The notes below the pieces were generated by a model. That model saw nothing but the letters and a program-made list of their open reading frames with translations, searched no databases and was not told the DNA's origin. Positions 5,931 to 31,976 of a stretch of 33,186 nt of DNA are shown piece by piece. The number at the start of each line of letters is the position of its first letter. Within the stretch, counting starts at the first letter, position 1. Origin of the DNA: a virus; the IMG/VR virus record IMGVR_UViG_3300014325_000034, positions 1-33,186 of that record; one strand, written 5' to 3'. Position numbers and translations under genes: made by a program.

Positions 5931-5942
5931 CTGAGCTGGGCG

Positions 5943-14765: not shown

Positions 14766-15121
14766 GCGCCCCGCTGGAGTGGTGCACGACGGAGTCCCGC
14801 CGCCTGCGGCACTTGTCCGATCAGCTCGTCCCAGACCGGCACGCGCCGCGGCGGGACGGTCGGGGCGGTCCGACGCTGTGTGGGCGGGACGGCCGGGATG
14901 AGGCGCGGGCCAACGCCCCGCGGAAGGTTTACGACGACAACGGTGTGACGTGGGCGATGTTGCCGCCGACGCGGCGGGTGGTCGTCGGGGCGTTGCCGGA
15001 GTGCCGTTCGTGCTTGCGCTGCGCGGGCGCGTTCAATCGCGCGCTGCCCGACGTTTCCGCCGTAGGCGGGGAGCCGGAGGCGACACATGAGAATGCTTCT
15101 GATCTTGGTGGTGGGTCATGA
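14762..15121 (+). CDS. Cys-containing hypothetical protein, 119 aa
   Basis: GTG 14762 overlaps the upstream stop. The product has a basic, Arg-rich N-terminal half with LCGRDGR and a Cys cluster near the C-terminus (ECRSCLRCAG), which may bind zinc. The last residues (SAVGGEPEATHENASDLGGG) are encoded by the first copy of the two-hairpin element and may be a neutral tail. Function unknown. Confidence 0.55.
   Translation: MSAPLEWCTTESRRLRHLSDQLVPDRHAPRRDGRGGPTLCGRDGRDEARANAPRKVYDDNGVTWAMLPPTRRVVVGALPECRSCLRCAGAFNRALPDVSAVGGEPEATHENASDLGGGS
15057..15085 (+). repeat. two-hairpin RNA element, copy 1
   Basis: Hairpin 1 is CCGCC-GTA-GGCGG (15057-15069), linker GGA, hairpin 2 is GCC-GGA-GGC (15073-15081) and tail GACA. 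It lies inside the end of the 119-aa gene. GGAGG in hairpin 2 is placed 6 nt before ATG 15087, which opens a 29-codon frame overlapping the next gene. It is one of six copies compared in the findings. Confidence 0.6.
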
Positions 15122-15384
15122 CCTTCCCTGCTTCCGACCGTCGGATCGAGTTGGCCCGCGCGATCAAGGCCGGTGAGGTCATCGACCACGGCCATGTCAG
15201 GGGCATGGTGACCTGGCAGAAGGGTCCTGCGAGTCAGGTTGTGGTTACGGGGAGGGTGGCTGAGTTCCGTCGGGCGGGTCTGTTGGAGGGTCCGTCGGCG
15301 GTTGGGGTTCGTCCTCCGTATTCGGTGCGGTTGAACGCCGCCGGTAAGGCGTGGCTGGCTGAGCACGGTGGGGGTGTCGCATGA
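15118..15384 (+). CDS. small winged-helix-like protein, 88 aa
   Basis: ATG 15118 overlaps the previous stop (ATGA). A helical start (RRIELARAIKAGEVID) leads into beta/alpha alternation with a likely turn (VAEFRRAGLLEGPSAVGVRP) and a C-terminal strand-helix (SVRLNAAGKAWLAEHG). This is the topology of a small winged helix, so DNA binding is possible. The end (LAEHGGGVA) resembles that of the next gene. Confidence 0.5.
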   Translation: MTFPASDRRIELARAIKAGEVIDHGHVRGMVTWQKGPASQVVVTGRVAEFRRAGLLEGPSAVGVRPPYSVRLNAAGKAWLAEHGGGVA

Positions 15385-15806
15385 CGGCGACTCTGCGCGG
15401 CCCGGCGCCGCGCCCGTGTGAGTCCTGCCCGTACCGTCGCGATGTCCCGTCCGGGGTGTGGGCGGCCGAGGAGTACGACAAGCTGCCCCGCTACGACGAT
15501 CCGACCTACGCGCAGCCGGCCGGCGTGTTCCTGTGTCACCAGCGGGACGGCCGAGTGTGCGCCGGTTGGGCCGGCTGCCACGACGGCGCTCACCTGCTGG
15601 CGCTCCGGATCGCCGTCCGGGCCGGCGAAATGACGGTCGCCAGCTACCGAGCGACGGTCACGTACTCCTCTCCGGTGCCGCTGTTCGCCAGTGGTTCGGA
15701 GGCTGCGGTGCACGGCAAGGCCGGCATCAACCAGCCCGGCGCGCCTGCTCGACGGGTCATCGCGAAGGTGTCCCGCCGGCTGGCTGAGCACGGGGGTGCG
15801 GCGTGA
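15381..15806 (+). CDS. DUF6283 family protein, 141 aa
   Basis: The N-terminus has CESCPYRRDVPSGVW, then YDDPTYAQPAGVFLCHQ and CAGWAGCHD. This Cys/His set and order match DUF6283, an actinobacterial and phage family of unknown function that probably binds metal. ATG 15381 overlaps the previous stop by 4 nt. The end (RRLAEHGGAA) repeats the tail of the upstream gene. Confidence 0.75.
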   Translation: MTATLRGPAPRPCESCPYRRDVPSGVWAAEEYDKLPRYDDPTYAQPAGVFLCHQRDGRVCAGWAGCHDGAHLLALRIAVRAGEMTVASYRATVTYSSPVPLFASGSEAAVHGKAGINQPGAPARRVIAKVSRRLAEHGGAA

Positions 15807-16282
15807 AGCGCGGCGGCGGTCTCAAGCGCACCGGCGAGTTGGTTCGGCACACCCCGCTCCGGGCGAAAGCGAAGCTGACGGCGCGGGTCGGCATGACGCG
15901 CCGTAAGGCGCAGAGCGCGAAGCGCGTCAAAGACACCGGTCCTAAACGCTCTGTTGTCGAGTTGGTCTTCGACCGTGACGGTGGCTGCTGCGTCCGCTGC
16001 GGCACCGCTCAGGGTCTCCGCTCCACTCACCACAGACGTCCGCGGCGAGCTGGCGGGGATCGGCGTCCGGAGACGAACATGCCGGCGAACCTGATCACGT
16101 TGTGCGGGTCGGCGACGTCGGCGGGCGGCTGCCATGGCGAGGTCGAGCGGTCGCGTACTGCGGCGCTCGCCGCCGGCTGGCTGCTCCACGCCAACGACAC
16201 CCCTTCCTTGGTGCCTGTTCTTACCTGGTGGGGCCTGGTTCTGCTGGATGACGAGGGCCGCTGGACGGAGGTCCCGTCATGA
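15803..16282 (+). CDS. HNH-type endonuclease, 159 aa
   Basis: A very basic N-terminal half (LKRTGELVRHTPLRAKAKLT) precedes an HNH fold: CVRCGTAQGLRSTHHRRPRR, an Asn in ANLITLCGS and GCHGEVE. The core H-N-H residues and two Cys pairs for a structural zinc are present. Phage HNH proteins of this type nick or cut DNA. Whether this is a homing, packaging or host-DNA nuclease cannot be told. GTG 15803 overlaps the DUF6283 stop. Confidence 0.8.
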   Translation: MKRGGGLKRTGELVRHTPLRAKAKLTARVGMTRRKAQSAKRVKDTGPKRSVVELVFDRDGGCCVRCGTAQGLRSTHHRRPRRAGGDRRPETNMPANLITLCGSATSAGGCHGEVERSRTAALAAGWLLHANDTPSLVPVLTWWGLVLLDDEGRWTEVPS

Positions 16283-16710
16283 CGGACTTCGTGATCTTGT
16301 TGACCGCCTCGCGCTCGTGGGACAGGCCGGACGTGGTGGACGAGACGCTGCGGATCCTGGCGAACTCGGCGTGGGAGTCGGGCTACAGCTACGTGGTGGT
16401 GCGGCATGGCGCCTGCCCGCAGGGTGGTGACGCGCACGCCGACGCCTGGGTCCGCCGTCAGCGGCACGAGGGTCTTGGTGTGCAGGCGGACCGGTGGCCG
16501 GCGGACTGGAGCGGGCTGGGTAAGCGGGCCGGCTACGTCCGGAACGTGGCGATGGTCCAGGCCGAGCCGACCGCCGACGTCTGTGTCGCGTTCATCCGTG
16601 ACCTGTCGACGGGCGCGAGCAACTGCGCTGAGCTGGCCGAACGGGCCGGTATCCCGGTGCAGGTCATCGACTACGACGACATCTCGGACGCTGCACAGGT
16701 GTCCCCGTGA
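16279..16710 (+). CDS. DUF2493/SLOG-family protein (YspA-like), 143 aa
   Basis: The product opens with a Rossmann-like strand (FVILLTASRSW) and continues with VVVRHGACPQGGDAHADAW, FPAD-like WPADWSG, RNVAMV and FIRDLSTGASN. These are the nucleotide-binding motifs of the DUF2493 branch of the SLOG superfamily, thought to bind nucleotide-derived ligands. In phages its role is unknown. ATG 16279 overlaps the HNH stop. Confidence 0.8.
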   Translation: MTDFVILLTASRSWDRPDVVDETLRILANSAWESGYSYVVVRHGACPQGGDAHADAWVRRQRHEGLGVQADRWPADWSGLGKRAGYVRNVAMVQAEPTADVCVAFIRDLSTGASNCAELAERAGIPVQVIDYDDISDAAQVSP

Positions 16711-16958
16711 CGACCCGGACACCTGTGCGGTGCGGCACCTACGGCGGCTATCAGCGGCACACCCGGCGCGGTGAGGTGCCGTGTGCCGAGTGCAAGAAGG
16801 CCAATCGGGAGTACGCCGCTGCGCGACGGGCTGACGACGCGGTCCGTTTGGAGCAGAACGCCCGGACCGCTGCCCGGAGCCGCGCGTTGTGGCGGCTGGC
16901 CGCCGAATACCCGGACCGGTTCCGGCAGCTGTTTATCGAGGAGGTGACGGGGACGTGA
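16707..16958 (+). CDS. zinc-ribbon-like small protein, 83 aa
   Basis: GTG 16707 overlaps the previous stop. The N-terminus has CGTYGGYQRHTRRGEVPCAE followed by C, giving a C-x8-H-x7-C-x2-C site shared with many short actinophage proteins. The C-terminal half is helical (ALWRLAAEYPDRFRQLF). It probably binds zinc and nucleic acid, which is inference. Confidence 0.6.
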   Translation: MTTRTPVRCGTYGGYQRHTRRGEVPCAECKKANREYAAARRADDAVRLEQNARTAARSRALWRLAAEYPDRFRQLFIEEVTGT

Positions 16959-17314
16959 CCACCTACAACCTGACCCCGGTGGGAGCCCGGGGGCGGATCG
17001 AGGGACGGACCGCGGAGGTGGAGGGCCCGGACCTGGAGAGGCCGCCGACCCGTTTGGATCTGCTGGCCCGGTTGGTGGAGCAGGGGCTGGAGTTGGAGCG
17101 GTTGTGTCGGCAGGTGGCGGTCGCGCAGGCCGCGGCCCGGCATATGGAAGAACTGCGGCTGCGGATGGACAACGAGGCAGCGCTGCGGGTCCGGGTGAAG
17201 CAGCGGCTGGATCGGGTGGCGCTCGTGTTCGCGGAGTTGGCCGATTCGCATCCGGAGTTGGCGGGGTCGATCGAGGCGGCACGGAAAGAGATCTGGAGGG
17301 ACGGGGATGTCTGA
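16955..17314 (+). CDS. coiled-coil hypothetical protein, 119 aa
   Basis: GTG 16955 overlaps the previous stop by 4 nt. After about 35 residues the protein is one long helix with heptads (LDLLARLVEQGLELERLCRQ, then AAARHMEELRLRMDNEAALR). It resembles small actinophage coiled-coil proteins. Its stop overlaps the remnant start of DUF5131 by 8 nt. Confidence 0.55.
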   Translation: MTTYNLTPVGARGRIEGRTAEVEGPDLERPPTRLDLLARLVEQGLELERLCRQVAVAQAAARHMEELRLRMDNEAALRVRVKQRLDRVALVFAELADSHPELAGSIEAARKEIWRDGDV

Positions 17315-17357
17315 GACCAGCATCGAGTGGACGCGGCAATGGCCGGCAACGCACTAG
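17307..17357 (+). pseudogene. orphaned start of the DUF5131 gene
   Basis: ATG 17307 begins MSETSIEWTRQ and stops at TAG 17357. The first nine codons match the start of the intact gene at 17785 (MAKTSIEWTG), including the identical ATCGAGTGGAC. The 8-nt overlap with the upstream stop is the same as at three later junctions, so this was probably the original DUF5131 start before an HNH gene was inserted. Confidence 0.65.
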
Positions 17358-17785: not shown

Positions 17786-18645
17786 TGGCCAAAACATCAA
17801 TCGAGTGGACCGGCCGCCTCGGAACTATCGGCGAGACATGGAATCCGACTACGGGCTGCGATCGGATTTCGACCGGGTGTGATAACTGCTACGCCCTGAC
17901 CCTGGCCCGCAGGCTCAAGGCGATGGGCTCGGCGAAGTACCAGGCCGACGGCGACCCGCGCACCTCGGGGCCGGGGTTCGGGCTGGCCGTCCACGAGGAT
18001 GCGTTGACGATCCCGCTGCGTTGGCGCCAGCCGAGAACCGTGTTCGTCAACTCCATGTCGGATTTGTTCCATGCCCGGGTGCCGCGCGGGTTCGTGGCCC
18101 GGGTGTGGGCGGTCATGGCGCGCACACCGCAGCACACCTACCAGATCCTCAGTAAGCGGCCGGAGCGAATGGCCCGGATCGTCGGGGACGACTTCGGCGA
18201 CGGGCAGGTGCTGCTGTCGGAGCTGACCGAGGAGGTCGCGGCGACGGCGCTGTATGAGCAGCCCTGGCCGCTGCCCGGCGTGTGGCTCGGCACGAGCATC
18301 GAGTCGGAGCAGCACGTCGGGCGCGCGGACCATCTGCGCCGCACCTCGGCCGCGGTCCGGTTCATCTCCGCTGAGCCGTTGATCGGTCCGCTGTACGGCT
18401 TGGACCTGACCGGGATCGACTGGTTGATCATCGGCGGTGAGTCCGGTCCGGGCTCGCGCCCCATGGACCTCGGCTGGGTTCGGGACCTGATCGCGCTGGC
18501 CCGCCAGTCCGGTACCGCCGTGTTCGTGAAGCAGCTCGGCGCGGTGCTGTCCGGCGGCGGTAAAGGCACGGACTGGTCGCGGTGGCCGGAAGACCTGCGG
18601 ATCCGCGAGTACCCCGAGCCTTCCCGGGGGGTCTCCGGTGTCTGA
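17785..18645 (+). CDS. DUF5131 (phage Gp37/Gp68) family protein, 286 aa
   Basis: The N-terminus has SIEWT, TWNPTTGC and a Cys cluster C25-x6-C32-x2-C35 (TGCDRISTGCDNCY). Later motifs are FVNSMSDLFH, YQILSKRPERM, VWLGTSIESEQ, FISAEPLIGPL and WLIIGGESGPGSRPM. These define DUF5131, a full-length family member found in many phages. The clustered Cys and barrel-like motif series suggest a radical-SAM-like iron-sulfur protein, but the reaction is not established. The start was rebuilt after HNH insertion. Confidence 0.85.
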   Translation: MAKTSIEWTGRLGTIGETWNPTTGCDRISTGCDNCYALTLARRLKAMGSAKYQADGDPRTSGPGFGLAVHEDALTIPLRWRQPRTVFVNSMSDLFHARVPRGFVARVWAVMARTPQHTYQILSKRPERMARIVGDDFGDGQVLLSELTEEVAATALYEQPWPLPGVWLGTSIESEQHVGRADHLRRTSAAVRFISAEPLIGPLYGLDLTGIDWLIIGGESGPGSRPMDLGWVRDLIALARQSGTAVFVKQLGAVLSGGGKGTDWSRWPEDLRIREYPEPSRGVSGV

Positions 18646-18988
18646 CCACGACGTGCAGGAACTGCCGCACGAGGACACGGTTCTGGACCTAAGGATGCAG
18701 GCGGCACGCGACTCGTTCGCTGCCGGCCGGGTCCATTCGCGGCTGATGCAGGAGTGGCGCGCGAACCGCGATCAGTACGCGCCCGCCGAGATCCACGAGC
18801 AGATGCTGACAGCGGTCGCGGCCGCCAACTACAGCTCGGCGCTTGTCGAGGTGCTCGGCTGGCTCGGTGTAGAGCACCCCAATCTCGTCTTCCAGGCAGG
18901 CTGCATCGCTCAGATGGTGATGATCGATGGCGGAGGGCGTTGGTCTGAGGACATTCCGTGGCCGCCGCCGGAGGTGTCCGGTGTCTGA
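18638..18988 (+). CDS. helical hypothetical protein, 116 aa
   Basis: GTG 18638 lies in the repeated junction CCGGTGTCTGA and overlaps DUF5131 by 8 nt. The sequence is helical (HSRLMQEWRANRDQYAPAEI, then LTAVAAANYSSALVEVLGWL) and ends with the shared tail PPEVSGV. No family is recognised. Confidence 0.6.
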   Translation: MSDHDVQELPHEDTVLDLRMQAARDSFAAGRVHSRLMQEWRANRDQYAPAEIHEQMLTAVAAANYSSALVEVLGWLGVEHPNLVFQAGCIAQMVMIDGGGRWSEDIPWPPPEVSGV

Positions 18989-19496
18989 GCTGTACGCGAT
19001 CACTGTCCGTCTCCCATGGGCGGCGGCGATCAGGGACGGGGAGAAGCTGGTCGAGAACCGGGGTCGGATGGTTGCGGCGGATCACATCGGCCGGCGGGTC
19101 GCGATCCACGCCGGATCGGTGTGGGATGCGGCGGCGGTTACGGATCCGCGGCTTCGTCGCTGGTGGTACGGGCACGAGGCGCAGCGCAGCCTGAGCGGGT
19201 CGGAGTTCCATGGGCTGTTCGGGAAGGTGTTGGCGGTGGCCACGCTGGTCGGCTGCCACGAGGCGAAGTGGCCGGCGTTGGAGCCGAGGGGCAACTGTTG
19301 TGCCCCGTGGGGTGACGCGTTCTACGGCCCGCCCCGGCAGGGTGGTCGACCGGTGGCCAAGCATCTGGTGCTGGCCGATGTGGTCGCGCTGGTCGAGCCG
19401 GTGGAGACCCGCGGCTACCTTCCGGTGCCGTGGTTGATGCCCGCCGACGTTGCACGCAGGGTGCTCGACCAGTTGTCGGGGGTGTCCGGTGTCTGA
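18981..19496 (+). CDS. ASCH-domain protein, 171 aa
   Basis: GTG 18981 sits in the second junction copy (8-nt overlap). YAITVRLPWAAAIRDGEKLV, ENRGR and GRRVAIHAGS form the ASCH/PUA-like beta-barrel RNA-binding fold. KVLAVATLVGC and ALVEPVETRGYLPVPW complete it. ASCH proteins bind RNA or modified nucleotides and a few cleave RNA. Role here unknown. Confidence 0.8.
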   Translation: MSELYAITVRLPWAAAIRDGEKLVENRGRMVAADHIGRRVAIHAGSVWDAAAVTDPRLRRWWYGHEAQRSLSGSEFHGLFGKVLAVATLVGCHEAKWPALEPRGNCCAPWGDAFYGPPRQGGRPVAKHLVLADVVALVEPVETRGYLPVPWLMPADVARRVLDQLSGVSGV

Positions 19497-19848
19497 GTCC
19501 TGGCACCTGCAGGCGAAATGCCGCGACCTGGATCCGGACCTCGCATTCGCGAGGGCGGACAGCCCGGAGATCAAGCAGTTCATCGGGGAACTCTGCCGCC
19601 GTTGTCCGGTGGCCGAGGAGTGTCTGTCCTTCGCGCTGCGCATCGAGAGCAGGCTGCGTACCGGCCAGTCCCGGTTCGGTGTGTACGGCGGGTTGACGGG
19701 TGAGGAACGGGCCCGGCTGTCGCGGTGGGGTGTGCGGTCCTGCATCGAGTGTGAGAAGGAGTTCGTGCCGCGGAACCGGGTGAACGTGCGATGCCGCCGG
19801 TGCGCCGCCAGGGCGGAGCGGCGCCATGAGCTGCGGAGCGCGGCATGA
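19489..19848 (+). CDS. WhiB-family protein with an added zinc finger, 119 aa
   Basis: GTG 19489 lies in the third junction copy. The four WhiB Cys are C11, C36, C39 and C45 (C-x24-C-x2-C-x5-C), expected to hold a 4Fe-4S cluster. GVYGGLTGEER is the usual G-[VI]-[WY]-G-G turn. Unlike standard WhiB proteins it continues with CIECEKEFVPRNRVNVRCRR and a final C (C85-x2-C88-x13-C102-x2-C105), a likely second zinc site. It probably acts on the host RNA polymerase sigma subunit, as known phage WhiB proteins do, but that is inference. Confidence 0.8.
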   Translation: MSESWHLQAKCRDLDPDLAFARADSPEIKQFIGELCRRCPVAEECLSFALRIESRLRTGQSRFGVYGGLTGEERARLSRWGVRSCIECEKEFVPRNRVNVRCRRCAARAERRHELRSAA

Positions 19849-21819: not shown

Positions 21820-21845
21820 CAACCCCCATCCCAGGAGGAGAGATC

Positions 21846-22493: not shown

Positions 22494-22508
22494 CCGCTCG
22501 GCGTGGAC

Positions 22509-22537
22509 GGGCCGGGCGTCCCGTATCCGCCCGGCCC
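22509..22537 (+). terminator. 10-bp GC hairpin after the TerD-like gene
   Basis: GGGCCGGGCG at 22509-22518 pairs perfectly with CGCCCGGCCC at 22528-22537 around a 9-nt loop, starting 16 nt after the stop codon. GCTT follows but there is no long U-run. It is the best terminator candidate between the two halves of the early block. Confidence 0.65.
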
Positions 22538-22562
22538 GCTTGATCAAGAGTAGGGGAGATCC

Positions 22563-22847: not shown

Positions 22848-23071
22848 CCTGGCGACACTCCACCCGGTGCGAAGCCGGAGCATGCCTCGAAGCCAACGGA
22901 CCCTGGACCAAATCCACCTACAGCAGCGAGTCGTTCAACTGCGTCCAGGCCCGACAGGACGGCACGGTGCTCGTCAGGGACTCCAAACTCGGGGATCGGT
23001 CCCCGGTGTTGGAGTTCGAGGCCGGGGTGTGGGTCGAGTTCGTGGACTGGCTGAAAGGCGAAGGATCATGA
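22844..23071 (+). CDS. DUF397 protein, 75 aa
   Basis: GTG 22844 overlaps the previous stop. Residues 20-72 carry WTKSTYSSESFNCVQARQDG, VLVRDSKL and VLEFEAGVWVEFVDWL. These are the DUF397 signature (W-x-K-S-[ST]-Y-S, N-C-V, V-R-D-S-K, W-x-x-F). In actinobacterial chromosomes DUF397 proteins pair with XRE/DUF5753 regulators in a control of differentiation. None of that type is nearby, so this may be a phage-borne orphan. Confidence 0.85.
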   Translation: MTWRHSTRCEAGACLEANGPWTKSTYSSESFNCVQARQDGTVLVRDSKLGDRSPVLEFEAGVWVEFVDWLKGEGS

Positions 23072-23637
23072 GCGATTTGGATGGCGTAGCCGGGGAGCCG
23101 GAGGCGACAACCGAAGAAGCCCCTCAGGTCGCCGTCACCGATTCGCCTACCCAAGTACCCGTACCTGACCCCACCGAGCCCGTAGTGGCGATCCTGGCGG
23201 GCGGAGCGCTGGTCTCCGCCGAGGCTGTGGCCCGCGCTTTCCATGAGACGTACGAGCGGCTCGCTCCGTCGTTCAGTTACGAGACCCGCAAGGCGTCGGC
23301 GGTGCCGTGGGAGCAGGTGCCGGAGAACAACCGGGCGTTGATGACGGCGGTCGCGGCGGAGGTCGCTCCTCTGGTAGCCGCACAAGCCCTGCGCTCGGCG
23401 TACTGGAAGCTCCGCGAGCACGCCTCCAGCTACCGGGGTGCCGACGCGTTCCGGAGGGTCGTCGAGCGGTACGAGGCGTCCGATCGGGATGAGCGGCTGT
23501 ACCGGGGTGTGGTGATCGACGAGTGGTACGCCCGGGGGATCGAGGCGGCGGCCAGGGATGTGGCCGAGTTGCTCGGCATCGAGGAGTACGACATCGAGGG
23601 CGAGCGCGCCGACGAGCTGGAGGCCGGCCGTGGCTGA
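23068..23637 (+). CDS. actinophage protein with conserved AFHETYERLAP motif, 189 aa
   Basis: ATG 23068 overlaps the previous stop (ATGA). A 45-residue disordered N-terminus contains copy 2 of the two-hairpin element (VAGEPEATTEEAP). The core AFHETYERLAPSFSYETRKA, VPWEQVPENNRALMTAV and VAPLVAAQALRSAYW is a recurring actinophage module. The tail RADELEAGRG resembles that of the next gene. Function unknown. Confidence 0.65.
   Translation: MSDLDGVAGEPEATTEEAPQVAVTDSPTQVPVPDPTEPVVAILAGGALVSAEAVARAFHETYERLAPSFSYETRKASAVPWEQVPENNRALMTAVAAEVAPLVAAQALRSAYWKLREHASSYRGADAFRRVVERYEASDRDERLYRGVVIDEWYARGIEAAARDVAELLGIEEYDIEGERADELEAGRG
23082..23109 (+). repeat. two-hairpin RNA element, copy 2
   Basis: Hairpin 1 is UGGC-GTA-GCCG (82-92, last pair a wobble), hairpin 2 is GCC-GGA-GGC (97-105) and tail GACA. 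It lies 14 nt inside the start of the 189-aa gene. The hairpin 1 bases differ from copy 1 but still pair. Confidence 0.55.
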
Positions 23638-23932
23638 CACCGAGATCACCCGTGAGGTCATGGACGCGGCGATCAGCGCCGACGTAGCCCATGGCCTTGC
23701 CGCTCACCCGGACGGGCGGGGGCACTACGTCCAATGCTGCCTGGAGGCTGGGCTACGGGCGGTTGCTCCGCTGATCGCCGCACAGGCCCTGCGCCAGGCC
23801 GCCGACGAGATACGCAGCCACATCTCCGCCCCGCGTGCCCGCGTCGTCGCTGCCGACGTGCCGCTCGACGTGGCGGCCGGGATCGTCGAGCGGCGCGCCG
23901 ACGAGCTGGAGCGGGGGACCGACCATGGCTGA
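23630..23932 (+). CDS. hypothetical protein, paralogous to upstream gene in part, 100 aa
   Basis: GTG 23630 overlaps the previous stop by 8 nt. VAPLIAAQALRQAADEIRSH matches VAPLVAAQALRSAYWKLREH of the upstream gene. Both end in RADELE, so they look like a partial duplication. The end (ERGTDHG) repeats in the following gene (ERGTDQ). Function unknown. Confidence 0.55.
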   Translation: MADTEITREVMDAAISADVAHGLAAHPDGRGHYVQCCLEAGLRAVAPLIAAQALRQAADEIRSHISAPRARVVAADVPLDVAAGIVERRADELERGTDHG

Positions 23933-24281
23933 CGATGACCGCGCCACTACCCCGAAGCCCGGCAAGCCGCGCGACACCCGCTGGACGTGGCAGTCGAACA
24001 GCAACGACCTGCGGGTCGGCTACATGGCCGTTGACGGCCGCATGTCGATCACCGACCTGATCGAGTACATGGCCACCGTCGCCCCCGGCGTTGACCCGGC
24101 GGACATCCACATCAACTGGTCGACGGTGACGTGGACCCGGCCGGCGAACGCCGACGAGTTGGCGCAGCGGCGGGCGGCGATCGCCCGTCACGATGCGCGC
24201 CACGAGGCGTGGGAGCGGGAGACCCTTGCCCGACTGCTGGCCAAGTACGGGGACCCGCTGGAGCGGGGGACCGACCAGTGA
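23925..24281 (+). CDS. hypothetical protein, 118 aa
   Basis: ATG 23925 overlaps the previous stop by 8 nt. The product has a disordered start, a beta/alpha centre (LRVGYMAVDGRMSITDLIEY) and a helical basic end (ARHEAWERETLARLLAKYGD). No family is recognised. Confidence 0.5.
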   Translation: MADDDRATTPKPGKPRDTRWTWQSNSNDLRVGYMAVDGRMSITDLIEYMATVAPGVDPADIHINWSTVTWTRPANADELAQRRAAIARHDARHEAWERETLARLLAKYGDPLERGTDQ

Positions 24282-24574
24282 CCGCACCATCGGCCGACGA
24301 TCGTCCAACCCCGGAGGAGTTCGCCGCCTTCGATGCCGCCCTGGCAACCCTGCGAGGTGACGGGGCTGCCGGCGGGCACGTGTACCTGTCGACAGCCTGT
24401 TACCACGGTGAGCACGGCTACTGCGCGGCGATGACCGGCTGGCAGGGGGAGAAACGCCCAGGTCAGTGCAAGTTCTGCGAGGCGCGCTGCGTCTGCGCCG
24501 AGTGCGATCACGGCGGCGCCCCAGCCACCCCGGCGTCAGCCGGAGAGCCGAAGGCGACAAATGAAGGGGGTTGA
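24278..24574 (+). CDS. Cys-rich actinophage protein, 98 aa
   Basis: GTG 24278 overlaps the previous stop by 4 nt. The centre has TACYHGEHGYCAAMTGW, GQCKFCEARCVCAECDH: six or more Cys with His, likely binding zinc. Similar Cys-rich proteins recur in actinophages. The last residues (ASAGEPKATNEGG) are coded by copy 3 of the two-hairpin element. Confidence 0.55.
   Translation: MTAPSADDRPTPEEFAAFDAALATLRGDGAAGGHVYLSTACYHGEHGYCAAMTGWQGEKRPGQCKFCEARCVCAECDHGGAPATPASAGEPKATNEGG
24530..24559 (+). repeat. two-hairpin RNA element, copy 3
   Basis: Hairpin 1 is CCGGC-GTCA-GCCGG (24530-24543), linker AGA, hairpin 2 is GCC-GAA-GGC (24547-24555) and tail GACA. The fourth pair of hairpin 1 is G-C here but C-G in copy 1, so the change is compensated. 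GAAGG is followed after 6 nt by ATG 24561, a seven-codon frame that overlaps the next gene start. Confidence 0.6.
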
Positions 24575-24576
24575 TC

Positions 24577-25368: not shown

Positions 25369-25913
25369 CCACCGAGACCTGGTACGCCCACCCCAACGAC
25401 CTGATCGGCGGCTGGTCAGTGCTGAACCGGGACCACCCGCCCAGCGGCCTCAACCGGGTCGACGACCGCGACGGACGCGAGGTGGCCACGTTCATGAGCG
25501 AGGCCGACGCGCGGCGGATCGCGGATCTCCACAACACGGAGGCGCTGTATGTGTGCGAGTCCTGCCCCGACAACGGGTGGGGATGCTGCGGCTCCTGGAA
25601 CGGCGGTGCCGACCGTCGGGCGTTCGTCGCCGGCCGGCGCCGGGAACGCGAACGCCTCGCCGCTGCCGGTCGTCTCCTCCCGGACGGAGGAGAAACCCGC
25701 ACCGAATGGGAGGTGTGGTGGCACGTCGGAGACGAGGGCGGCATCGCGCTGAGCGAGCGGCATCTCGCCTCGAGGGAGCAGGCCGAACAGCGAGGACGGA
25801 AACGGATCGGCGAGTACGCCATTACGCGGTTCACGATCCATTGCCGCGATCACCTCATCTTCGCCGATGGATCTTCGTTCACCGGCCCGTGGGTGGAGGT
25901 CACCGATGCCTGA
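25365..25913 (+). CDS. hypothetical protein with central Cys cluster, 182 aa
   Basis: ATG 25365 overlaps the previous stop by 4 nt. The N-terminal part is beta/alpha (YAHPNDLIGGWSVLNRDHPP, then VATFMSEADARRIADLHN). A CESCPDNGWGCCG cluster lies near residue 64. The C-terminal half has ITRFTIHCRDHLIFADGSS and ends GPWVEVTDA. It is joined to the next gene by the GGAGGTCACCGATGCC module. Confidence 0.55.
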   Translation: MTTETWYAHPNDLIGGWSVLNRDHPPSGLNRVDDRDGREVATFMSEADARRIADLHNTEALYVCESCPDNGWGCCGSWNGGADRRAFVAGRRRERERLAAAGRLLPDGGETRTEWEVWWHVGDEGGIALSERHLASREQAEQRGRKRIGEYAITRFTIHCRDHLIFADGSSFTGPWVEVTDA

Positions 25914-26229
25914 ACCGACGTCTCAGCAGCTGTTGGACTTGCCGCTGCCGCCGGACAACCCCTCAGGTGCGACGACGGTACGCGGCTATCTGATCAAGCT
26001 GCTGCACAACCTGTGGCGCGACGAGGCCAACTTCAACTCCAAGCGCCCGTTCGGCTACTCGGGCTGGGCGCATGACCTGTACGTCCCCATGGTCAAAGCG
26101 GGCATGGTGGCGGGGGTCTTGTCGAAGGACGGCTACGACGAGTTGGACGAGTTCGACTACAAGCCCGCTGACCGGCTCATTCTCGCTGCGATCTTGTCGT
26201 TGGGGGAGGTCACTGATGCCACCGGATGA
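25906..26229 (+). CDS. conserved-looking actinophage protein, 107 aa
   Basis: ATG 25906 overlaps the previous stop by 8 nt and has GGAGGT 6 nt upstream. GYLIKLLHNLWRDEANFNSK, RPFGYSGWAHDLYVPMVKAG and DRLILAAILSLG resemble a short protein that recurs in actinophage early regions. Function unknown. Confidence 0.6.
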   Translation: MPEPTSQQLLDLPLPPDNPSGATTVRGYLIKLLHNLWRDEANFNSKRPFGYSGWAHDLYVPMVKAGMVAGVLSKDGYDELDEFDYKPADRLILAAILSLGEVTDATG

Positions 26230-26524
26230 GCGGCCGAAGTGCGGGACGTGCGACGACATCGGGTGGGTCGACGACCCGAGCGCCTGCGGGGATCTGGAGC
26301 ACTGCTCGCCGGTGGTCCAGTGCCCTGATTGCGACCAATGGAGGGACGACGACTCGACGCTGGCCGTCCACGTCGCCGACTGGATGCCGGACGACATGGT
26401 CCTGCTCTACGCCCCACCCGAACACGACGACCCAGATCCAGACGCGTCGCTGCCCCGCCGCGCCGCGATCATCCGGCTCGCCGTAGACCCACAACCGAAG
26501 GAGGTCACCGATGCCGTCGGATGA
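26216..26524 (+). CDS. zinc-finger-like small protein, 102 aa
   Basis: ATG 26216 overlaps the previous stop by 14 nt with GGAGGT 6 nt upstream. The N-terminus has CGTCDDIGWVDDPSACGDLE and CPDCDQW, consistent with a zinc ribbon. The C-terminal half is acidic and ends AVDPQPKEVTDAVG, the tail module shared with other genes here. Function unknown. Confidence 0.5.
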   Translation: MPPDERPKCGTCDDIGWVDDPSACGDLEHCSPVVQCPDCDQWRDDDSTLAVHVADWMPDDMVLLYAPPEHDDPDPDASLPRRAAIIRLAVDPQPKEVTDAVG

Positions 26525-26723: not shown

Positions 26724-26937
26724 GCCAAGCCGGGTTCCGTTGGAGGACTACCTCGCCAGGATCGGGACCGGCTTGGTACCGCAGAGTGGCTGGGCGCTCA
26801 GCAAGGAGCGTGCCGCCGCGCTCGACGGGCAACTGAGGCGCCTGGATCGCGCTCGCAGGGTCGCTGCCCTGGAGCTACGGAACTGGACTCCCGGCCCATG
26901 GGTGGCCGTAGACCCGGTGGAGGTGAGCGATGCCTGA
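26710..26937 (+). CDS. helical hypothetical protein, 75 aa
   Basis: ATG 26710 overlaps the previous stop by 14 nt. The first 60 residues are mostly helix (VPLEDYLARIGTGLVPQSGW, then LDGQLRRLDRARRVAALEL), and the end PGPWVAVDPVEVSDA contains the shared tail module. Function unknown. Confidence 0.5.
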   Translation: MLRDEPSRVPLEDYLARIGTGLVPQSGWALSKERAAALDGQLRRLDRARRVAALELRNWTPGPWVAVDPVEVSDA

Positions 26938-27169: not shown

Positions 27170-27172
27170 CCC

Positions 27173-27457
27173 ATGCCCCTGACCTACCGCAAGCGGCCGA
27201 TCGTCATCGAGGCCATGCAGTACACCGCCGACTCGTGTCGGTCCCTGCATGCCTGGATAGGGCTGGAGCACGCCGACCACGACGAGGACTGCGACCAGGG
27301 CATCTTCATCGACACGCTCGAAGGACTGATGGAGGCCAGCCTCGGGGACTGGATCATCCGCGGCGTGAAGGGTGAGTTCTACCCCTGCAAGCCGGACATC
27401 TTCGAGGCAACGTACGAGCCGGTGGCCGTAGACCCCGAGGAGAAGCCGGGTGCTTGA
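27173..27457 (+). CDS. phage protein of the KRPIVIEAMQY type, 94 aa
   Basis: ATG 27173 has GGAGGACT upstream. LTYRKRPIVIEAMQYT, SLHAWIGLEH, LGDWIIRGVKGEFYPCKPDI and FEATYEPV match a small protein found in many phages and prophages (strand-rich, unknown function). It ends AVDPEEKPGA, the shared tail in a new variant. Confidence 0.75.
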   Translation: MPLTYRKRPIVIEAMQYTADSCRSLHAWIGLEHADHDEDCDQGIFIDTLEGLMEASLGDWIIRGVKGEFYPCKPDIFEATYEPVAVDPEEKPGA

Positions 27458-27638
27458 CGCCGTCCGTCGCCGCTGGCCGCTGCTGCTCACTGTCGGGCAG
27501 GCGGTCTACGCCTACGCCGGGCGTCACAGGCTTCCTGAAGCGGGCTTCTGGGTTTTGGTGACCCTGCTGCTGGCGATCGTGTACGAGGTCCGTGACCTGC
27601 GGCTCGCGCTCCAACCCGACCCCGAGGAGAAGCCGTGA
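27450..27638 (+). CDS. single-pass membrane protein, 62 aa
   Basis: GTG 27450 overlaps the previous stop by 8 nt. A basic start (VLDAVRRRW) precedes a weak hydrophobic stretch, then EAGFWVLVTLLLAIVYEVRD forms a clear membrane helix. It ends LQPDPEEKP, again the shared tail. Function unknown. Confidence 0.5.
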   Translation: MLDAVRRRWPLLLTVGQAVYAYAGRHRLPEAGFWVLVTLLLAIVYEVRDLRLALQPDPEEKP

Positions 27639-27814
27639 GCAGTGCGACCTTCAACCCGCCGACCGCCGAAACGGGCCCATTCACGGTCACCGTCCCGGCG
27701 GTTGTCCCGCACCACGACCGGATGTGCCGCTGCGGGCGAATGCACACCCCGACGTCGGCGCCGTGCCGATGGTGGGGCCGGTCGGTGCACCCCGAGGAGA
27801 AGCCGAATGGCTGA
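27635..27814 (+). CDS. small Cys/Pro-rich protein, 59 aa
   Basis: GTG 27635 overlaps the previous stop by 4 nt. The product has a Thr/Pro/Val-rich half and CRCGRMHTPTSAPC, a possible metal site, then VHPEEKPNG with the shared tail. It is short but sits with 4-nt and 8-nt overlaps between two plausible genes. Confidence 0.45.
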   Translation: MSSATFNPPTAETGPFTVTVPAVVPHHDRMCRCGRMHTPTSAPCRWWGRSVHPEEKPNG

Positions 27815-28229
27815 GTACCCGCGTCCTCATATCGTGATCGACCCAGCCATGTGCTTCGGCTCCCCGCAGATCAGGGGTGTCTCCACCGATGCGATCGCAA
27901 GCCTGGTCCGGGCTGGCGAGGACTTCGGCACGGTGGCTGACGAGTACGGCCTGAGCCGGCATGAGGTGGTGGACGCGCTTCACTGCACCTGCATCCAGGA
28001 GGTCGTCGACACGTTCGGCGACCCGGCTGCCGTTCGTCTGTCGTGGTGCCCGGTCCACTCCGCCGGAGGCGGGGAGCGCAGCGACATCCGAAAAGGCGGT
28101 AAAGAGTACGAAACGGCGCTGCTCCGGCAGCGTTACCACGATCTTCGGGCCGCTGTGATCCGGGATGGGTTGCCGAATCTGGTGGCGAGGATCGAGGCAG
28201 CGGAGTTGCGTACGCAGTGTGACGAATGA
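27807..28229 (+). CDS. DUF433-domain protein, 140 aa
   Basis: ATG 27807 overlaps the previous stop by 8 nt. HIVIDPAMCFGSPQIRGVST, AIASLVRAGEDFGTVADEYG and LSRHEVVDALH are the DUF433 pattern (strand, G-x-P-x-I-x-G-x-x, and an HTH), known from VapB-like antitoxins. No PIN-domain toxin is next to it. The C-terminal half is helical. Copy 4 of the two-hairpin element lies in its middle (VHSAGGGERSDIR), in a segment that looks like an insertion. Confidence 0.75.
   Translation: MAEYPRPHIVIDPAMCFGSPQIRGVSTDAIASLVRAGEDFGTVADEYGLSRHEVVDALHCTCIQEVVDTFGDPAAVRLSWCPVHSAGGGERSDIRKGGKEYETALLRQRYHDLRAAVIRDGLPNLVARIEAAELRTQCDE
28060..28086 (+). repeat. two-hairpin RNA element, copy 4
   Basis: Hairpin 1 is CCGCC-GGA-GGCGG (28060-28072), linker GGA, hairpin 2 is GC-GCA-GC (28076-28082) and tail GACA. 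It lies inside the DUF433 gene, at the boundary between the domain and the helical tail. Confidence 0.55.
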
Positions 28230-28276
28230 AGATCAATCTATCCGGATTTACGGGCGAGAACGTCAAGGGGGTAGCG

Positions 28277-28983: not shown

Positions 28984-29651
28984 CCGAGCCGAGCCCCGAG
29001 TTCTGGGACGCCATGCAGACGATGATCGTGCACCAGGGCGGCACCGATGAGGAGTGGGAGTCCTACCGCCGGACCTTCCCGGAGCGGGTCGAGCCGCCGT
29101 TGCGGGAGCCGTACGACAGTGACGATCCGTGTCCGACGTGCGGCACTCCGATCGTCAGCATGTTGATGGGCGACGCGGTCTTCCTGCCGTGCCGGCACGC
29201 GTTCGTAGTGGACGACGAGTTCGACGGGGTGGCGTACAACTGGAGGCGGGGGCTGCTGCGCTTGCTCCGGCGTCGCTGCCGGGACTGCGGAGCGCTGCGC
29301 GGCAAGCCGCATGAGGGCGGCTGCGACGTGGCCCGCTGCCTCGCCTACGGCACGCAGCGGATCCAGTGCGGTGACGGCGCCCGGCTCGTGGTCGTCGGCT
29401 TCTACCCGTGGGGGTCGCCGATCGTCCGGCATGAGTGGGACGGTCACGACTGCGGCAAGGATGTCTGGTCTGGGCGCTGGCCGGGTGTGGCGGATGCTGA
29501 GCGGCTGGGCTGGTACGCCTACTTCGTGCCCAACGGTGACCCGTCGTGGGTGCCCTGCGGCCCGGATCATCCCGGTGCCCGCCCTGACCTGAACAGGCTT
29601 CAGGTCGAGGGCCGGTGGAACCCCCGGCTGCTTCGATGGGAGGCCCGGTGA
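28980..29651 (+). CDS. Cys/His-rich hypothetical protein, 223 aa
   Basis: ATG 28980 overlaps the previous stop (ATGA). There are CPTCG at about residue 51, CRDCGALRG near residue 100, HEGGCD and later CGKDVW and CGPDH, so one or more zinc sites are likely. A long central part is beta-rich (ARLVVVGFYPWGSPIVRHEW). No family is recognised. Confidence 0.55.
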   Translation: MTEPSPEFWDAMQTMIVHQGGTDEEWESYRRTFPERVEPPLREPYDSDDPCPTCGTPIVSMLMGDAVFLPCRHAFVVDDEFDGVAYNWRRGLLRLLRRRCRDCGALRGKPHEGGCDVARCLAYGTQRIQCGDGARLVVVGFYPWGSPIVRHEWDGHDCGKDVWSGRWPGVADAERLGWYAYFVPNGDPSWVPCGPDHPGARPDLNRLQVEGRWNPRLLRWEAR

Positions 29652-29770
29652 GCTTCCGTCGCCGTCTCGAAGACGGCTACCAGTGCCTTGTCCTGGTCCT
29701 CATGCTCGGTGTCGCTGGGCTGCTCGGTGCTGTGGCTGGCGCCTTCGTGACCTGGAGCGTGATCGGCTGA
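29648..29770 (+). CDS. single-pass membrane peptide, 40 aa
   Basis: GTG 29648 overlaps the previous stop by 4 nt. The peptide is VSFRRRLEDGYQ followed by a 25-residue hydrophobic helix (CLVLVLMLGVAGLLGAVAG). Basic residues at the start put the N-terminus inside. Size and placement suggest a phage membrane peptide. Function unknown. Confidence 0.55.
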   Translation: MSFRRRLEDGYQCLVLVLMLGVAGLLGAVAGAFVTWSVIG

Positions 29771-29967
29771 TGAGTGTCAGTGACGAGTTCGCCGCCGGCC
29801 TGGCGTTGATGCTGGAGCAGATCGCCCCGGTGAAAGAGGCTGCTCAGGGCTATCGGGAGCAGCTGCGTCGCGATGGTTGGTCGGAGCCTGCGGCTGAGGA
29901 GATGGCAATGGAGTTGCACAACCACATGATCTCGATGGTCTTCGCGAAGATGGGCGGCTCGCGGTGA
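29770..29967 (+). CDS. helical hypothetical protein, 65 aa
   Basis: ATG 29770 overlaps the previous stop by 1 nt. The product is helical: FAAGLALMLEQIAPVKEAAQ, then GYREQLRRDGWSEPAAEEMA, MELHNHMISMVFAKMG. It resembles small structural or scaffold-type phage proteins, but no family is recognised. Confidence 0.55.
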   Translation: MSVSDEFAAGLALMLEQIAPVKEAAQGYREQLRRDGWSEPAAEEMAMELHNHMISMVFAKMGGSR

Positions 29968-30215
29968 CCGAGTATCACGAACGGTACGGACTTCGTCCCA
30001 CCGCCCGCCGCATGGTCTACATCCAGGCACATCTGGCCGGCTTGGCCGAGGCCCAGCGGCGCGGAGTTTCATCCGCTGACAGCAACGCCATCACCACTGC
30101 GGCCGCTACTGCGGTGTTGGAGTTGTTGGAGTCGTGGGGATTGGCGCCGGACGGTGAGCCGGACTGCTCCGCCGTAGGCGGTAAGCCCGAAGGGCGCCAA
30201 GAAAAAGGATCTTAG
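29964..30215 (+). CDS. helical hypothetical protein, 83 aa
   Basis: GTG 29964 overlaps the previous stop by 4 nt. The N-terminal 55 residues are helical (PTARRMVYIQAHLAGLAEAQ, then ITTAAATAVLELLESWG). The tail CSAVGGKPEGRQEKGS is coded by copy 5 of the two-hairpin element and is probably neutral. Confidence 0.5.
   Translation: MTEYHERYGLRPTARRMVYIQAHLAGLAEAQRRGVSSADSNAITTAAATAVLELLESWGLAPDGEPDCSAVGGKPEGRQEKGS
30169..30199 (+). repeat. two-hairpin RNA element, copy 5
   Basis: Hairpin 1 is CCGCC-GTA-GGCGG (30169-30181), linker TAA, hairpin 2 is GCCC-GAA-GGGC (30185-30195) and tail GCCA. Hairpin 2 is one pair longer than in copies 1-3 and both strands changed together. It ends 16 nt before the stop codon and 25 nt before the hairpin at 30224. 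Confidence 0.6.
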
Positions 30216-30223
30216 GAAGGTTG

Positions 30224-30255
30224 CGGCCCTCAGGTCTTCGACTACCTGAGGGCCG
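30224..30255 (+). terminator. strong 12-bp hairpin after the 83-aa gene
   Basis: CGGCCCTCAGGT at 30224-30235 pairs perfectly with ACCTGAGGGCCG at 30244-30255 around an 8-nt loop, starting 8 nt after the stop codon. No U-run follows. It is the clearest transcription break in the second half of the early block. The gap to ATG 30334 (78 bp) may hold a promoter, but I see no convincing hexamers. Confidence 0.7.
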
Positions 30256-30333
30256 GTGACGAGGATACCGACGCGCACCCAAACGCATTGGATCTCGACC
30301 GCAGGATAGCTGACCAGTGCGGATGGGGTTCGG

Positions 30334-31077
30334 ATGTCTGAGTTCGAGTTGCTGCATAGGGCGGTGGGGGCGCTGCTTCGGCGTCCGCAGATGCGAATTG
30401 ATGTCGGACCTGTGTCGTACTGTGTTCGGGCTCCGTGTCTGCTTCGTCAGTTGGAGGAGGCGATCGCCTCGTCGAGTGGTGGGGTGGGTGGTCGGACGTC
30501 GCCGGGGACGCGGGCTCCGTTGGATCAGGGTGCGTTGGATTTGTGGACGGAGATCCTGGCCAGTGTGGGGGCGTGGGCTGCGGTGCTGGGGTTGGACCGC
30601 CGCCGGTACCGCAACGGCCCGACCGACACGGACCCGGATTCTCCGCCGATGATCGGGCTGCTGTTGCGGGCGGTGGCTGCGGCGATCGCGGGGCGGACGG
30701 ACCGGGACCTGATGGCGGTGGCGGTGGAGCGGAACTGCCGCAGGTGGAAGATCCGCATTGAGGGGATGTTGTCCCCGCCGGAGTCGGCCGGCCGCGGCAT
30801 CGTCGGCGTGTCGTGCCGGCACTGTGGGGAACGGTGGGTGGTGTCGGTCCCGGATCCGGAGCCGGGTAGGCCGGATCAGGTGCGCTGGGTTCCTGCGGTG
30901 GAGGAGCCGGGGGAGACGAGGCAGCCGGCGGTATGGGTCGAGCGCGGCGAGACCGGGGTGATCCGCTGCCTCTGGTGCCGATCTTGCGGGCAGCACACGT
31001 GGCGGGATGACCTCGCTGCTGAAGCGGCGGAACATGACGGGCTGGACAACGAGCATCCGAACGGAGCAGCGGCATGA
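30334..31077 (+). CDS. phage zinc-ribbon protein (DUF7341-like), 247 aa
   Basis: ATG 30334 begins MSEFELLHRAVGALLRRPQM. LLRQLEEAIASS, GTRAPLDQGALDLWTEILAS and LLRAVAAAI give a helical N-terminal half. The second half has CRHCGERW and CLWCRSCGQHTW, two Cys pairs consistent with zinc ribbons. The set resembles DUF7341-type actinophage proteins, a tentative match from memory. It starts after the strong hairpin and ends NGAAA. Confidence 0.55.
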   Translation: MSEFELLHRAVGALLRRPQMRIDVGPVSYCVRAPCLLRQLEEAIASSSGGVGGRTSPGTRAPLDQGALDLWTEILASVGAWAAVLGLDRRRYRNGPTDTDPDSPPMIGLLLRAVAAAIAGRTDRDLMAVAVERNCRRWKIRIEGMLSPPESAGRGIVGVSCRHCGERWVVSVPDPEPGRPDQVRWVPAVEEPGETRQPAVWVERGETGVIRCLWCRSCGQHTWRDDLAAEAAEHDGLDNEHPNGAAA

Positions 31078-31709
31078 CACCTGAGCGCGAGTCGTACCTT
31101 GCCAGAGCAGCGGCCATCGGCGTGTCGGAAGAGGAAGCACTCGCAGCGCTCGGCGTCGCTTACCGCGAGGCTCTCGAACGCGGGCAACGCCTTGACCCGT
31201 ACGGGGATGCGTGGCGGCGGTTGGTGAGCAGCCCCCGTTGGTGCCCCAAGGTCACGGGCCGGCTGTTCGTGGCCGAGCTGAACACTGAGCCGCCGGACAT
31301 GACGGCGAAAGACGGTACCTTCGCCGTTGGCTGGCGGAAGCCGTGGTTGCCGGCGGGTGTGGTCTACGCAAAGCCGATCGAGATGCGGCCGGCTGATCTC
31401 GTGGACCATGTGACGGAGTTCGGTGTGCTGGATCGGACCTTTGGTCCTGCCGGTTACCTGCTGAAGGTGCCCACGGCTGACGTGGGCGAGTGGCCGTCGA
31501 GGTACCGCCCAACGACGTTGTACAGCCCGCCGTCGATCTATGAGGTCAAGTTCATGGTCGGGTGGGAATCCGCTGACCGGGCTGAGCGGATCGTCTGCCG
31601 GCAGGTGCTGTCGGTGGCGTGGCCTCGGGTCTTCCGGGTGGAGTCTCATCCGGAGGGTTCGTGGACCATGTGGCGCGCCGCCATGGGGCGGGCCGGAGCA
31701 GCGGCATGA
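31074..31709 (+). CDS. hypothetical protein, 211 aa
   Basis: ATG 31074 overlaps the previous stop by 4 nt within GGAGCAGCGGCATGA. A helical start (ESYLARAAAIGVSEEEALAA) leads into a mostly beta middle (TGRLFVAELNTEPPDMTAKD, YEVKFMVGWESADR). It ends AGAAA, coded by the same boundary sequence again. No family is recognised. Confidence 0.55.
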   Translation: MTPERESYLARAAAIGVSEEEALAALGVAYREALERGQRLDPYGDAWRRLVSSPRWCPKVTGRLFVAELNTEPPDMTAKDGTFAVGWRKPWLPAGVVYAKPIEMRPADLVDHVTEFGVLDRTFGPAGYLLKVPTADVGEWPSRYRPTTLYSPPSIYEVKFMVGWESADRAERIVCRQVLSVAWPRVFRVESHPEGSWTMWRAAMGRAGAAA

Positions 31710-31939
31710 AGCCGGTAAGGGCAGTCATCGCGTCATGGCTCCTGCGCGAACAGTTGGCCGCCGCCATAAGGCTGATCAACGACTTGACCGACCCCGACGA
31801 CTGCTGGTTCGACCACCACGGTGGCTGCCAGGCTCACGGCTACCTGTCGCTGGAGCCCGGCGAAAAATGCCCCCAGCGGGAAGCGAAAGAGATGGTCGAA
31901 GCACACCGGGCGCTTATCGAGGACGGGCTCCGTGATTGA
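31706..31939 (+). CDS. hypothetical protein, 77 aa
   Basis: ATG 31706 overlaps the previous stop within the repeated GGAGCAGCGGCATGA. The product is helical with CWFDHHGGCQAHG and EKCPQ, a possible metal site. Function unknown. It is the last gene of the tight block, and copy 6 of the two-hairpin element follows its stop by 9 nt. Confidence 0.55.
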   Translation: MKPVRAVIASWLLREQLAAAIRLINDLTDPDDCWFDHHGGCQAHGYLSLEPGEKCPQREAKEMVEAHRALIEDGLRD

Positions 31940-31948
31940 TCAGCCACT

Positions 31949-31976
31949 CCGCCGTGAGGCGGGGAGCGAAGCGACT
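31949..31976 (+). repeat. two-hairpin RNA element, copy 6
   Basis: Hairpin 1 is CCGCC-GTGA-GGCGG (31949-31962), linker GGA, hairpin 2 is GC-GAA-GC (31966-31972) and tail GACT. Here it lies outside any convincing gene, between the last tight-block gene and the lipoprotein gene, so it is not kept by coding need. Confidence 0.6.

Follow-up and report, generated by a model that had tools for sequence, protein, structure and literature searches.

Several related, uncultured soil phages carry, in their early region, a short two-hairpin element with a core of about 30 nt, present in several copies per genome and at ten loci across the group. The element is a real repeat and apparently undescribed, no earlier account of it having been found, as the sequence-only reading of this DNA had supposed; the broad kind is known, that of the group-specific dispersed repeats of actinophages, and the structured family described here is a new variant of it. 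Our preferred explanation, to which we assign a probability of roughly 40%, is a group-specific dispersed element of temperate actinophages acting as folded DNA at gene borders. A temperate phage is indicated by the presence of integrase, repressor-like HTH and antirepressor genes.

The window, by which we mean the whole analysed stretch of 33,186 nucleotides (IMG/VR record IMGVR_UViG_3300014325_000034), was searched with a descriptor consisting of a first stem, closed by C-G and 4 bp or longer, that carries a G-N-A or G-N-N-A loop, then 2-4 nt, and a second stem with a G-N-A loop. This gave seven matches on the + strand and none on the - strand (Table 1), against a mean of 0.1 and a maximum of 1 for both strands together in 200 dinucleotide shuffles of the window, which rules out a chance origin. 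All six copies previously proposed, each on the + strand, were confirmed at their positions, and a seventh (A2, at 15898) had been overlooked. The covariance-model (CM) score of A2 is weak because its stem lengths depart from the model, and its probable membership rests on architecture, conservation and the tail of its counterpart in phage G010 (GACTCCCAAA).

Table 1. Copies of the two-hairpin element in the window, and the gene fused with copy B
Feature	Position	Strand	Sequence	CM score (bits)	Context
A	15057..15085	+	CCGCC GTA GGCGG GGA GCC GGA GGC GACA	58.7	within the coding sequence for the C-terminal tail (SAVGGEPEATHENASDLGGGS*), ORF 14675-15121; orthologues in G001, G005, G010
A2	15898..15928	+	GCGCC GTAA GGCGC AGA GCGC GAA GCGC	12	near N-terminus of HNH endonuclease gene (15803-16282); orthologues in G001, G005, G010
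B	23082..23109	+	TGGC GTA GCCG GGGA GCC GGA GGC GACA	34.5	
Gene fused with B	23068..23637	+			MSDLD joined to GVAGEPEATTEE
C	24530..24559	+	CCGGC GTCA GCCGG AGA GCC GAA GGC GACA	58.8	final codons of ORF 24131-24574
D	28060..28086	+	CCGCC GGA GGCGG GGA GC GCA GC GACA	54.1	domain junction of ORF 27642-28229
E	30169..30199	+	CCGCC GTA GGCGG TAA GCCC GAA GGGC GCCA	26.3	final codons of ORF 29964-30215
F	31949..31976	+	CCGCC GTGA GGCGG GGA GC GAA GC GACT	51.2	most likely intergenic, after ORF ending 31935 and before 32024

The architecture is strict. Every one of the 246 stem pairs is G-C, with no G-T and no A-T; stems of this composition are partly expected from a G+C content of 69%. Loops are GNA or GNNA apart from two stem-1 loops (GCG in copy A of G010, GCAG in copy A2 of G005), a count that is partly circular in that G..A loops are required by the descriptor itself. 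The tetraloops follow GNNA and not GNRA, and include GTCA and GTTA (GUCA and GUUA). The length of stem 2 varies between 2 and 4 bp, and the half-sites differ among loci with pairing kept and the spacer G and A fixed; the stem 2 of copy E, for instance, is mirrored as GGGC/GCCC in copy H of G005 and G009. The compensatory stem changes claimed earlier hold: in 23 aligned copies 100% of cells are paired and 14 are altered on both sides, so that the stems vary by paired changes only and pairing is not broken as often as it is kept. Covariation is 0.204 against 0.044 in shuffles and disappears when the alignment is slid, a statistic carried by two variable pair positions only and by copies of which those of one locus are not independent; paired changes beyond these positions come from a structural alignment made by hand across loci. 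The 3-nt linker of the earlier description, taken together with the GAC tail, may equally be seen as lengthening stem 2 through tandem G.A pairs (GGA/GAC), and some copies have Watson-Crick pairs (AGC/GCC) in their place. The tail is rich in A and has no more than a degenerate CT-containing stretch; computed folding energies clearly favour neither DNA over RNA nor either strand.

As had been anticipated, further copies occur in relatives, several in each of four related IMG/VR phages (G001, G005, G009, G010). The sites are scattered along some 17 kb of the early block, at the starts and ends of small early genes and also within coding sequence, and they mostly keep to one strand as proposed, nine of the ten loci being sense (binomial p = 0.02). 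Four phages have the inverted locus, I, in intact form, with a variable loop base between a constant G and A. Beyond the group the element is hard to find. Strict patterns run over 2.9 million viral contigs matched only the phage group, bar one weak match with a differing tail (IMGVR 3300024186_000177); another matched contig, IMGVR 3300005841_000080, is the G001 phage itself (99.99%). Six contigs picked up by a first, loose pattern (L005, L006, L007, L009, L010 and L011) have single matches each, probably due to chance. Rfam gave no match in the window above gathering score, a blastn search for cultured relatives, run with one copy on 50,697 phage records, returned only weak partial matches, and the descriptor found no element in phiC31 and part of BaxterFox, nor was one present in relatives by capsid or portal protein, which are mostly structural-gene fragments. 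The covariance-model search yielded further copies within the phage group, and in 396 Actinomycetota genomes, among which the true host is perhaps not included, nothing comparable beyond three isolated matches of about 28 bits, which disfavours a host-wide repeat. Scans of genome contigs for a host gave no match by capsid and, by portal, one 44% relative in an Acidimicrobiia MAG.

Many of the sites coincide with places where the phages differ. Flank identity drops to background on one or both sides of elements that are themselves 75-98% identical, and the sequence subtype is specific to each locus and constant there even with the neighbouring genes replaced; at locus C the GTCA subtype occurs in five of five phages despite swapped flanks. 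Copy B itself lies at a deletion junction, where an inverted copy (I) and a cassette of 93-231 bp, present in four relatives, are absent from the window, and this accounts for its first stem, previously taken to be intact as in the other copies, having a damaged 5' arm of three Watson-Crick pairs and a T-G where the relatives have CCGGC/GCCGG. The MSDLD start of the resulting fused gene is common to the gene that bears the inverted copy in the relatives, which have three unrelated in-frame cassettes at the joint. An inversion switch was rejected, since no reverse-complement relation exists among the cassettes that I and B enclose. Homology breaks at elements number 37 against 7.1 expected from shifted positions, but this enrichment largely vanishes against other gene ends (5/7 elements versus 25/47 element-free gene ends; Fisher p = 0.44), so the idea of elements as special recombination hot spots was dropped, and these counts do not show the element to cause exchange. 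Other short boundary sequences in these phages behave alike, and the five records yielded no RecT.

Known actinophage repeats resemble the element in part. Like them it is a short multi-copy repeat restricted to a single phage group, with most copies in non-structural genes and most in one orientation. The SAS/ESAS repeats of Cluster K mycobacteriophages and of Microbacterium phages in Cluster EF, whose role is not established in the literature, are also group-specific and short, lie in non-structural genes and, a few inverted copies aside, nearly all point the same way, and ESAS has inverted repeats (PMC3203893, PMC7302621). SAS, however, is a 13-bp repeat that overlaps the ribosome-binding site and lies 3-7 nt upstream of start codons (PMC3203893, PMC7302621), whereas our copies differ in sequence, form two hairpins of fixed geometry and lie at gene tails, at starts and inside coding sequence: A, C and E code protein tails, A2 is intragenic, and the 3' end of F is about 50 nt ahead of a start codon, so they are not Start Associated Sequences. 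The 17-bp Cluster O (Corndog) and 18-bp Cluster EG inverted repeats are similarly small, dispersed, and both intergenic and coding (PMC4351075, PMC7302621), but in Cluster O the arms form single dyads and do not vary, in contrast to two adjacent dyads with paired arm variation and fixed G..A loops. Boundary sequences and the 29-bp LRRHood repeat are short and sit at gene ends where modules swap (PMC3029335 and its references); unlike the element, they are not described as conserved structures.

In the folded-DNA explanation the coding strand would form two abutting ultra-stable mini-hairpins, with G-C pairs only and C-G-closed GNA or GNNA loops, with the linker and the GAC tail perhaps stacked in tandem G.A pairs. 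Extraordinarily stable DNA mini-hairpins have a GNA or GNNA loop and at least two G-C pairs (PMC4686876), a sequence rule obeyed by all copies bar the two stem-1 loops noted above, and copy F includes exactly GCGAAGC, the type sequence of such a hairpin. The GTCA and GTTA tetraloops fit this DNA rule and not the RNA GNRA rule, which favours folded DNA; the sense bias counts against it, because RNA action predicts the same bias. N4 promoter hairpins are used by a giant virion RNA polymerase of about 3500 residues; the five records, of which some are incomplete, contain no stop-free frame longer than 1260 codons, and the element does not fit an N4-type hairpin promoter. The likeness is in the fold: N4 early-promoter hairpins act at the DNA level with a 3-nt loop, 5' G and 3' A on a short C-G-closed stem, and their closing pair and loop G and A are needed for extrusion at physiological supercoiling (PMC4496689), although they are single hairpins on the template strand and here the GNA strand is the coding strand. 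By analogy, the GNA strand would fold in supercoiled DNA, or in DNA made single-stranded by transcription or replication, and be bound by a candidate structure-reading protein of phage or host. Less confidently, we infer that the short shared sequence may serve as a joint for early-gene cassette exchange by homologous recombination.

A role through folded DNA is more likely than one through antitermination RNA, the nut/boxB- or put-like element of the sequence-only reading, which was not supported. On that reading, which is possible but doubtful, two hairpins repeated along a long early operon would recruit either RNA polymerase, as put does, or a phage or host factor, as nut does, to effect antipausing or antitermination, or mark or protect mRNA 3' ends. 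The sense bias, the confinement to the early block and the paired stem changes agree with it, yet the antisense locus is intact and equally well conserved in four phages, and neither a GNRA preference nor a single G-U pair is seen. boxB has a GNRA-like pentaloop and adjoins boxA; here loops are GNA/GNNA, boxA is not established and no N-like protein was recognised (Pfam; 25/71 PHROG families looked at). HK022 put shares the two stem-loops and the early location, but it is an RNA of about 70 nt with a triplex, present only as putL and putR downstream of the early promoters (PMC9378689), as opposed to several sites per genome with a far shorter core. put acts by way of the beta' zinc-binding domain, through which it suppresses pausing and termination.

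It seems rather unlikely that the element is a boundary sequence of neutral or selfish nature, passed from one gene end to another by recombination and with hairpins left by a non-autonomous REP/MITE-like element. This would account for the copies at gene ends, matches the other boundary sequences, with parallels in the 29-bp LRRHood repeat and the 17-bp repeat at Corndog gene 14, and suits the inverted pair I/B flanking a cassette missing from the window, much as YungJamal gene 60 lies between imperfect inverted repeats and is missing in relatives (PMC4351075, PMC7302621). Paired changes in both stems with fixed loop bases at ten loci nevertheless require selection for the fold, identical loci are retained in diverged phages, and neither a Y1 transposase (PF01797, five records) nor abundance in the 396 Actinomycetota genomes, with the true host perhaps outside them, was found, as REP/RAYT or IS200/IS605-derived elements would have. 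Several early-region sites with one main orientation in a temperate phage also recall stoperators, but a double-stranded binding site for a phage regulator, its dyad reflecting a dimeric protein, is improbable given half-sites that differ with pairing retained, the variable length of stem 2 and the invariant spacer G and A. Far less credible is a conserved peptide, (S/T)A(V/S)(G/A)GEP(E/K)AT at protein tails or linkers, with nucleotide conservation secondary: A, B and C, and E loosely, share one reading phase, but D, F, H and A2 give other peptides, G009 reads D in another phase, F is apparently intergenic and I is antisense. On account of the changing phase, the antisense locus I and the intergenic copy F, a protein motif is ruled out as the full explanation, in agreement with the earlier rejection of protein coding as the cause of conservation.

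Phage mosaicism is pervasive, and it is an old question whether short conserved sequences guide its joints or these arise at random. Here a repeat with a clear fold is kept at fixed addresses while neighbouring genes exchange, and its loop grammar points to folded DNA. It would be a long shot that the twin mini-hairpins represent a folded-DNA site of a new class, which extrudes from one strand at gene borders and is recognised by a structure-specific protein, with each subtype as the mark of one address, allowing gain, loss or swap of early-gene cassettes at defined joints while their neighbours stay undisturbed. For guided cassette exchange, and for hairpin extrusion beyond N4, the element is a specific case that can be tested; were it instead to act through RNA, actinophages would have in it an elongation or stability signal with many sites.

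Judged from its gene content, which includes an integrase, an HTH regulator, an antirepressor, a replication-initiation protein and HNH genes, the 33,186-base virus record (69% G+C) is a temperate phage, and its protein relatives place it in actinobacteria. All six copies of the two-hairpin element claimed by the sequence-only reading were found, and a structural descriptor search of the window added a seventh at 15898, so that the + strand has seven matches and the - strand none, where shuffles expect 0.1. Exact-pattern scans of 2.9 million viral contigs were used to trace relatives, of which G001 (IMGVR 3300026088_000018), G005 (3300005617_000513), G009 (3300044709_000074) and G010 (3300032003_000001) were examined over their full sequence. 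These four phages share the sites of the window and have additional ones, so further copies do exist in related phages. Ten loci are known in all, and the one-strand arrangement noted at first holds for nine (A, A2, B, C, D, D5, E, F and H, all sense; p = 0.02) and fails for locus I, which is antisense and intact.

The element appears specific to this group. A covariance model gave 26 matches at E <= 5e-6 in the 561 kb searched, all within the five records, and the two strictest degenerate patterns matched nothing outside the group except, weakly, a single unrelated contig. Three isolated weak matches were seen in 396 Actinomycetota genomes, the element was absent from those checked among 20 IMG/VR capsid relatives (mostly structural-gene fragments), and an Rfam search of the window returned no matches. 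The unrelated contig L076 (IMGVR 3300024186_000177) reads CCGCC GCAA GGCGG CGA GC GCA GC GAG at 8773-8798, keeping the architecture with a different linker and tail, probably by chance.

The consensus is RACCACT - CCGSC GNA/GNNA GSCGG - (G/A)G(A/C) - G..C GNA G..C - G(A/C)CA NNC AAA, with a first stem mostly of 5 bp and a second of 2 to 4 bp. Across loci the fourth pair of stem 1 alternates between C-G and G-C, outer stem-1 pairs are altered in A2 and D5, and stem 2 occurs as GC/GC, GCC/GGC, GGC/GCC, GCGC/GCGC, GCCC/GGGC or GGGC/GCCC; every stem pair counted is G-C (246/246, with the window's damaged copy B not counted). The compensatory changes first proposed were borne out in a 23-copy MAFFT alignment, in which 100% of cells pair and 14 are changed on both sides, at two variable pair positions only and with same-locus copies non-independent; sliding the partner strand abolishes this signal. 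In most copies linker and tail read GGA/GAC or AGA/GAC; C of G001 has AGC/GCC there, and I has either that or GGC/GCC. The pattern resembles a possible lengthening of stem 2 by tandem G.A pairs that Watson-Crick pairs replace in some copies, and E and H do not fit it past the first mismatch.

Protein coding as the cause of conservation was rightly excluded, since peptides and phases differ (..GEP(E/K)AT in A, B and C; for D, GERSD in the window and a differently phased GSEAT in G009; GKGEAR in H; RRKAQSAKR in A2), copy F is apparently intergenic, and locus I lies antisense. On these comparisons, conservation acts on nucleotides and not on the peptide.

Between phages the element is 75-98% identical, while identity in the 60 bases to one or both sides of it has often dropped to background. 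Locus C keeps its GTCA subtype although both flanks differ in several phage pairs, and the sequences upstream of B are identical in G001 and G010 but those downstream are unrelated. Ends of local homology fall within 10 bp of elements 37 times, versus 7.1 at shifted positions, a fivefold excess. This enrichment is weakened by a control on gene ends in the window, where homology ends at 25/47 without an element versus 5/7 with one (p = 0.44), and by unrelated 25-60-bp border sequences that are likewise conserved between swapped genes; its position at exchange joints is explained by its position at gene borders, and a causal role in exchange is unsupported. The most telling joint is I/B, where in four phages a gene start is followed by inverted copy I, an in-frame cassette (three unrelated kinds, 93-231 bp) and B. 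Both cassette and inverted copy are missing from the window, whose copy B is the scar of their loss.

The reading we favour, at a probability of roughly 0.4, is a folded-DNA site at gene borders, which draws on a loop rule, on features of extrusion and on the intact inverted locus. Extraordinarily stable DNA mini-hairpins, typified by GCGAAGC, have a GNA or GNNA loop and at least two G-C pairs (PMC4686876), and N4 promoter hairpins depend on a C-G closing pair and on G and A in the loop to extrude at physiological supercoiling (PMC4496689). Nearly all loops of the element are GNA or GNNA, C-G-closed and above at least two G-C pairs, and copy F includes GCGAAGC exactly. Weighing against folded DNA are computed folding, which favours no side, the failure to find a Y1 transposase, RecT or a frame long enough for an N4-type polymerase in searches of the five records, and the predominance of sense loci.

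That same orientation speaks for action as RNA, which ranks second and is rather doubtful, as the loops have no GNRA preference, G-U pairs are absent and I stays intact when inverted; the suggested likeness to HK022 put is not supported, put differing in size, number and position. A boundary repeat with no function of its own is ranked third and is somewhat less likely again.

Coordinates of features in the window
Feature	Position	Remark
Tyrosine integrase gene	6116-7267	
tRNA-like stretch	5942-5988	47 bp, minus strand
Element copies A, B, C, D, E, F	15057, 23082, 24530, 28060, 30169, 31949	starts
GGAGGTCACCGATGCC	25895-25910, 26205-26220, 26500-26515, 26919-26934	four copies
ACCCCGAGGAGAAGCCG	27432-27457, 27619-27644, 27789-27814	three copies
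Further border sequences	18626-18646, 18969-18989, 19477-19497; 23900-23925, 24252-24277; 15778-15806; 16255-16285; 14721-14772	short, conserved
Inverted repeat GGGCCGGGCG...CGCCCGGCCC	22504-22558	strong
GC-rich hairpin	30224-30255	immediately 3' of copy E

Other sequences also mark borders. ACCCCGAGGAGAAGCCG lies at or near stop codons of successive small genes and is common to the window, G001, G009 and G010 despite differing flanking genes. The further border sequences surround stop or start codons, several recurring in adjacent genes, and are common to phages whose neighbouring genes are swapped; they may form a general repertoire of linkers at gene borders. The inverted repeat, common to G010 and G005, is likely a terminator or other border hairpin, and the hairpin beside copy E matches G001 in inverted orientation only, its loop flipped (CTTCGACTA versus TAGTCGAAG). 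Adjoining the integrase, the tRNA-like stretch can be read as the 3' portion of a tRNA gene (possibly Val, anticodon CAC), is inverted in G001 and G010, is 98% identical to human faecal phage record MT838510 and is a probable attP core.

GGAGGTCACCGATGCC covers both the Shine-Dalgarno and the start codon in a series of consecutive small genes and is much like a Start Associated Sequence. Group-specific dispersed repeats of unknown function are found in actinophages of Cluster K (SAS/ESAS), Clusters EF and EG, and Cluster O, and the 29-bp repeat of LRRHood exemplifies single border repeats. The element family falls within this broad kind; its anatomy of two hairpins, with changes that come in pairs and loops of fixed grammar, is undescribed for those repeats and in the literature searched, and on the favoured reading its members would act as folded DNA at gene borders.
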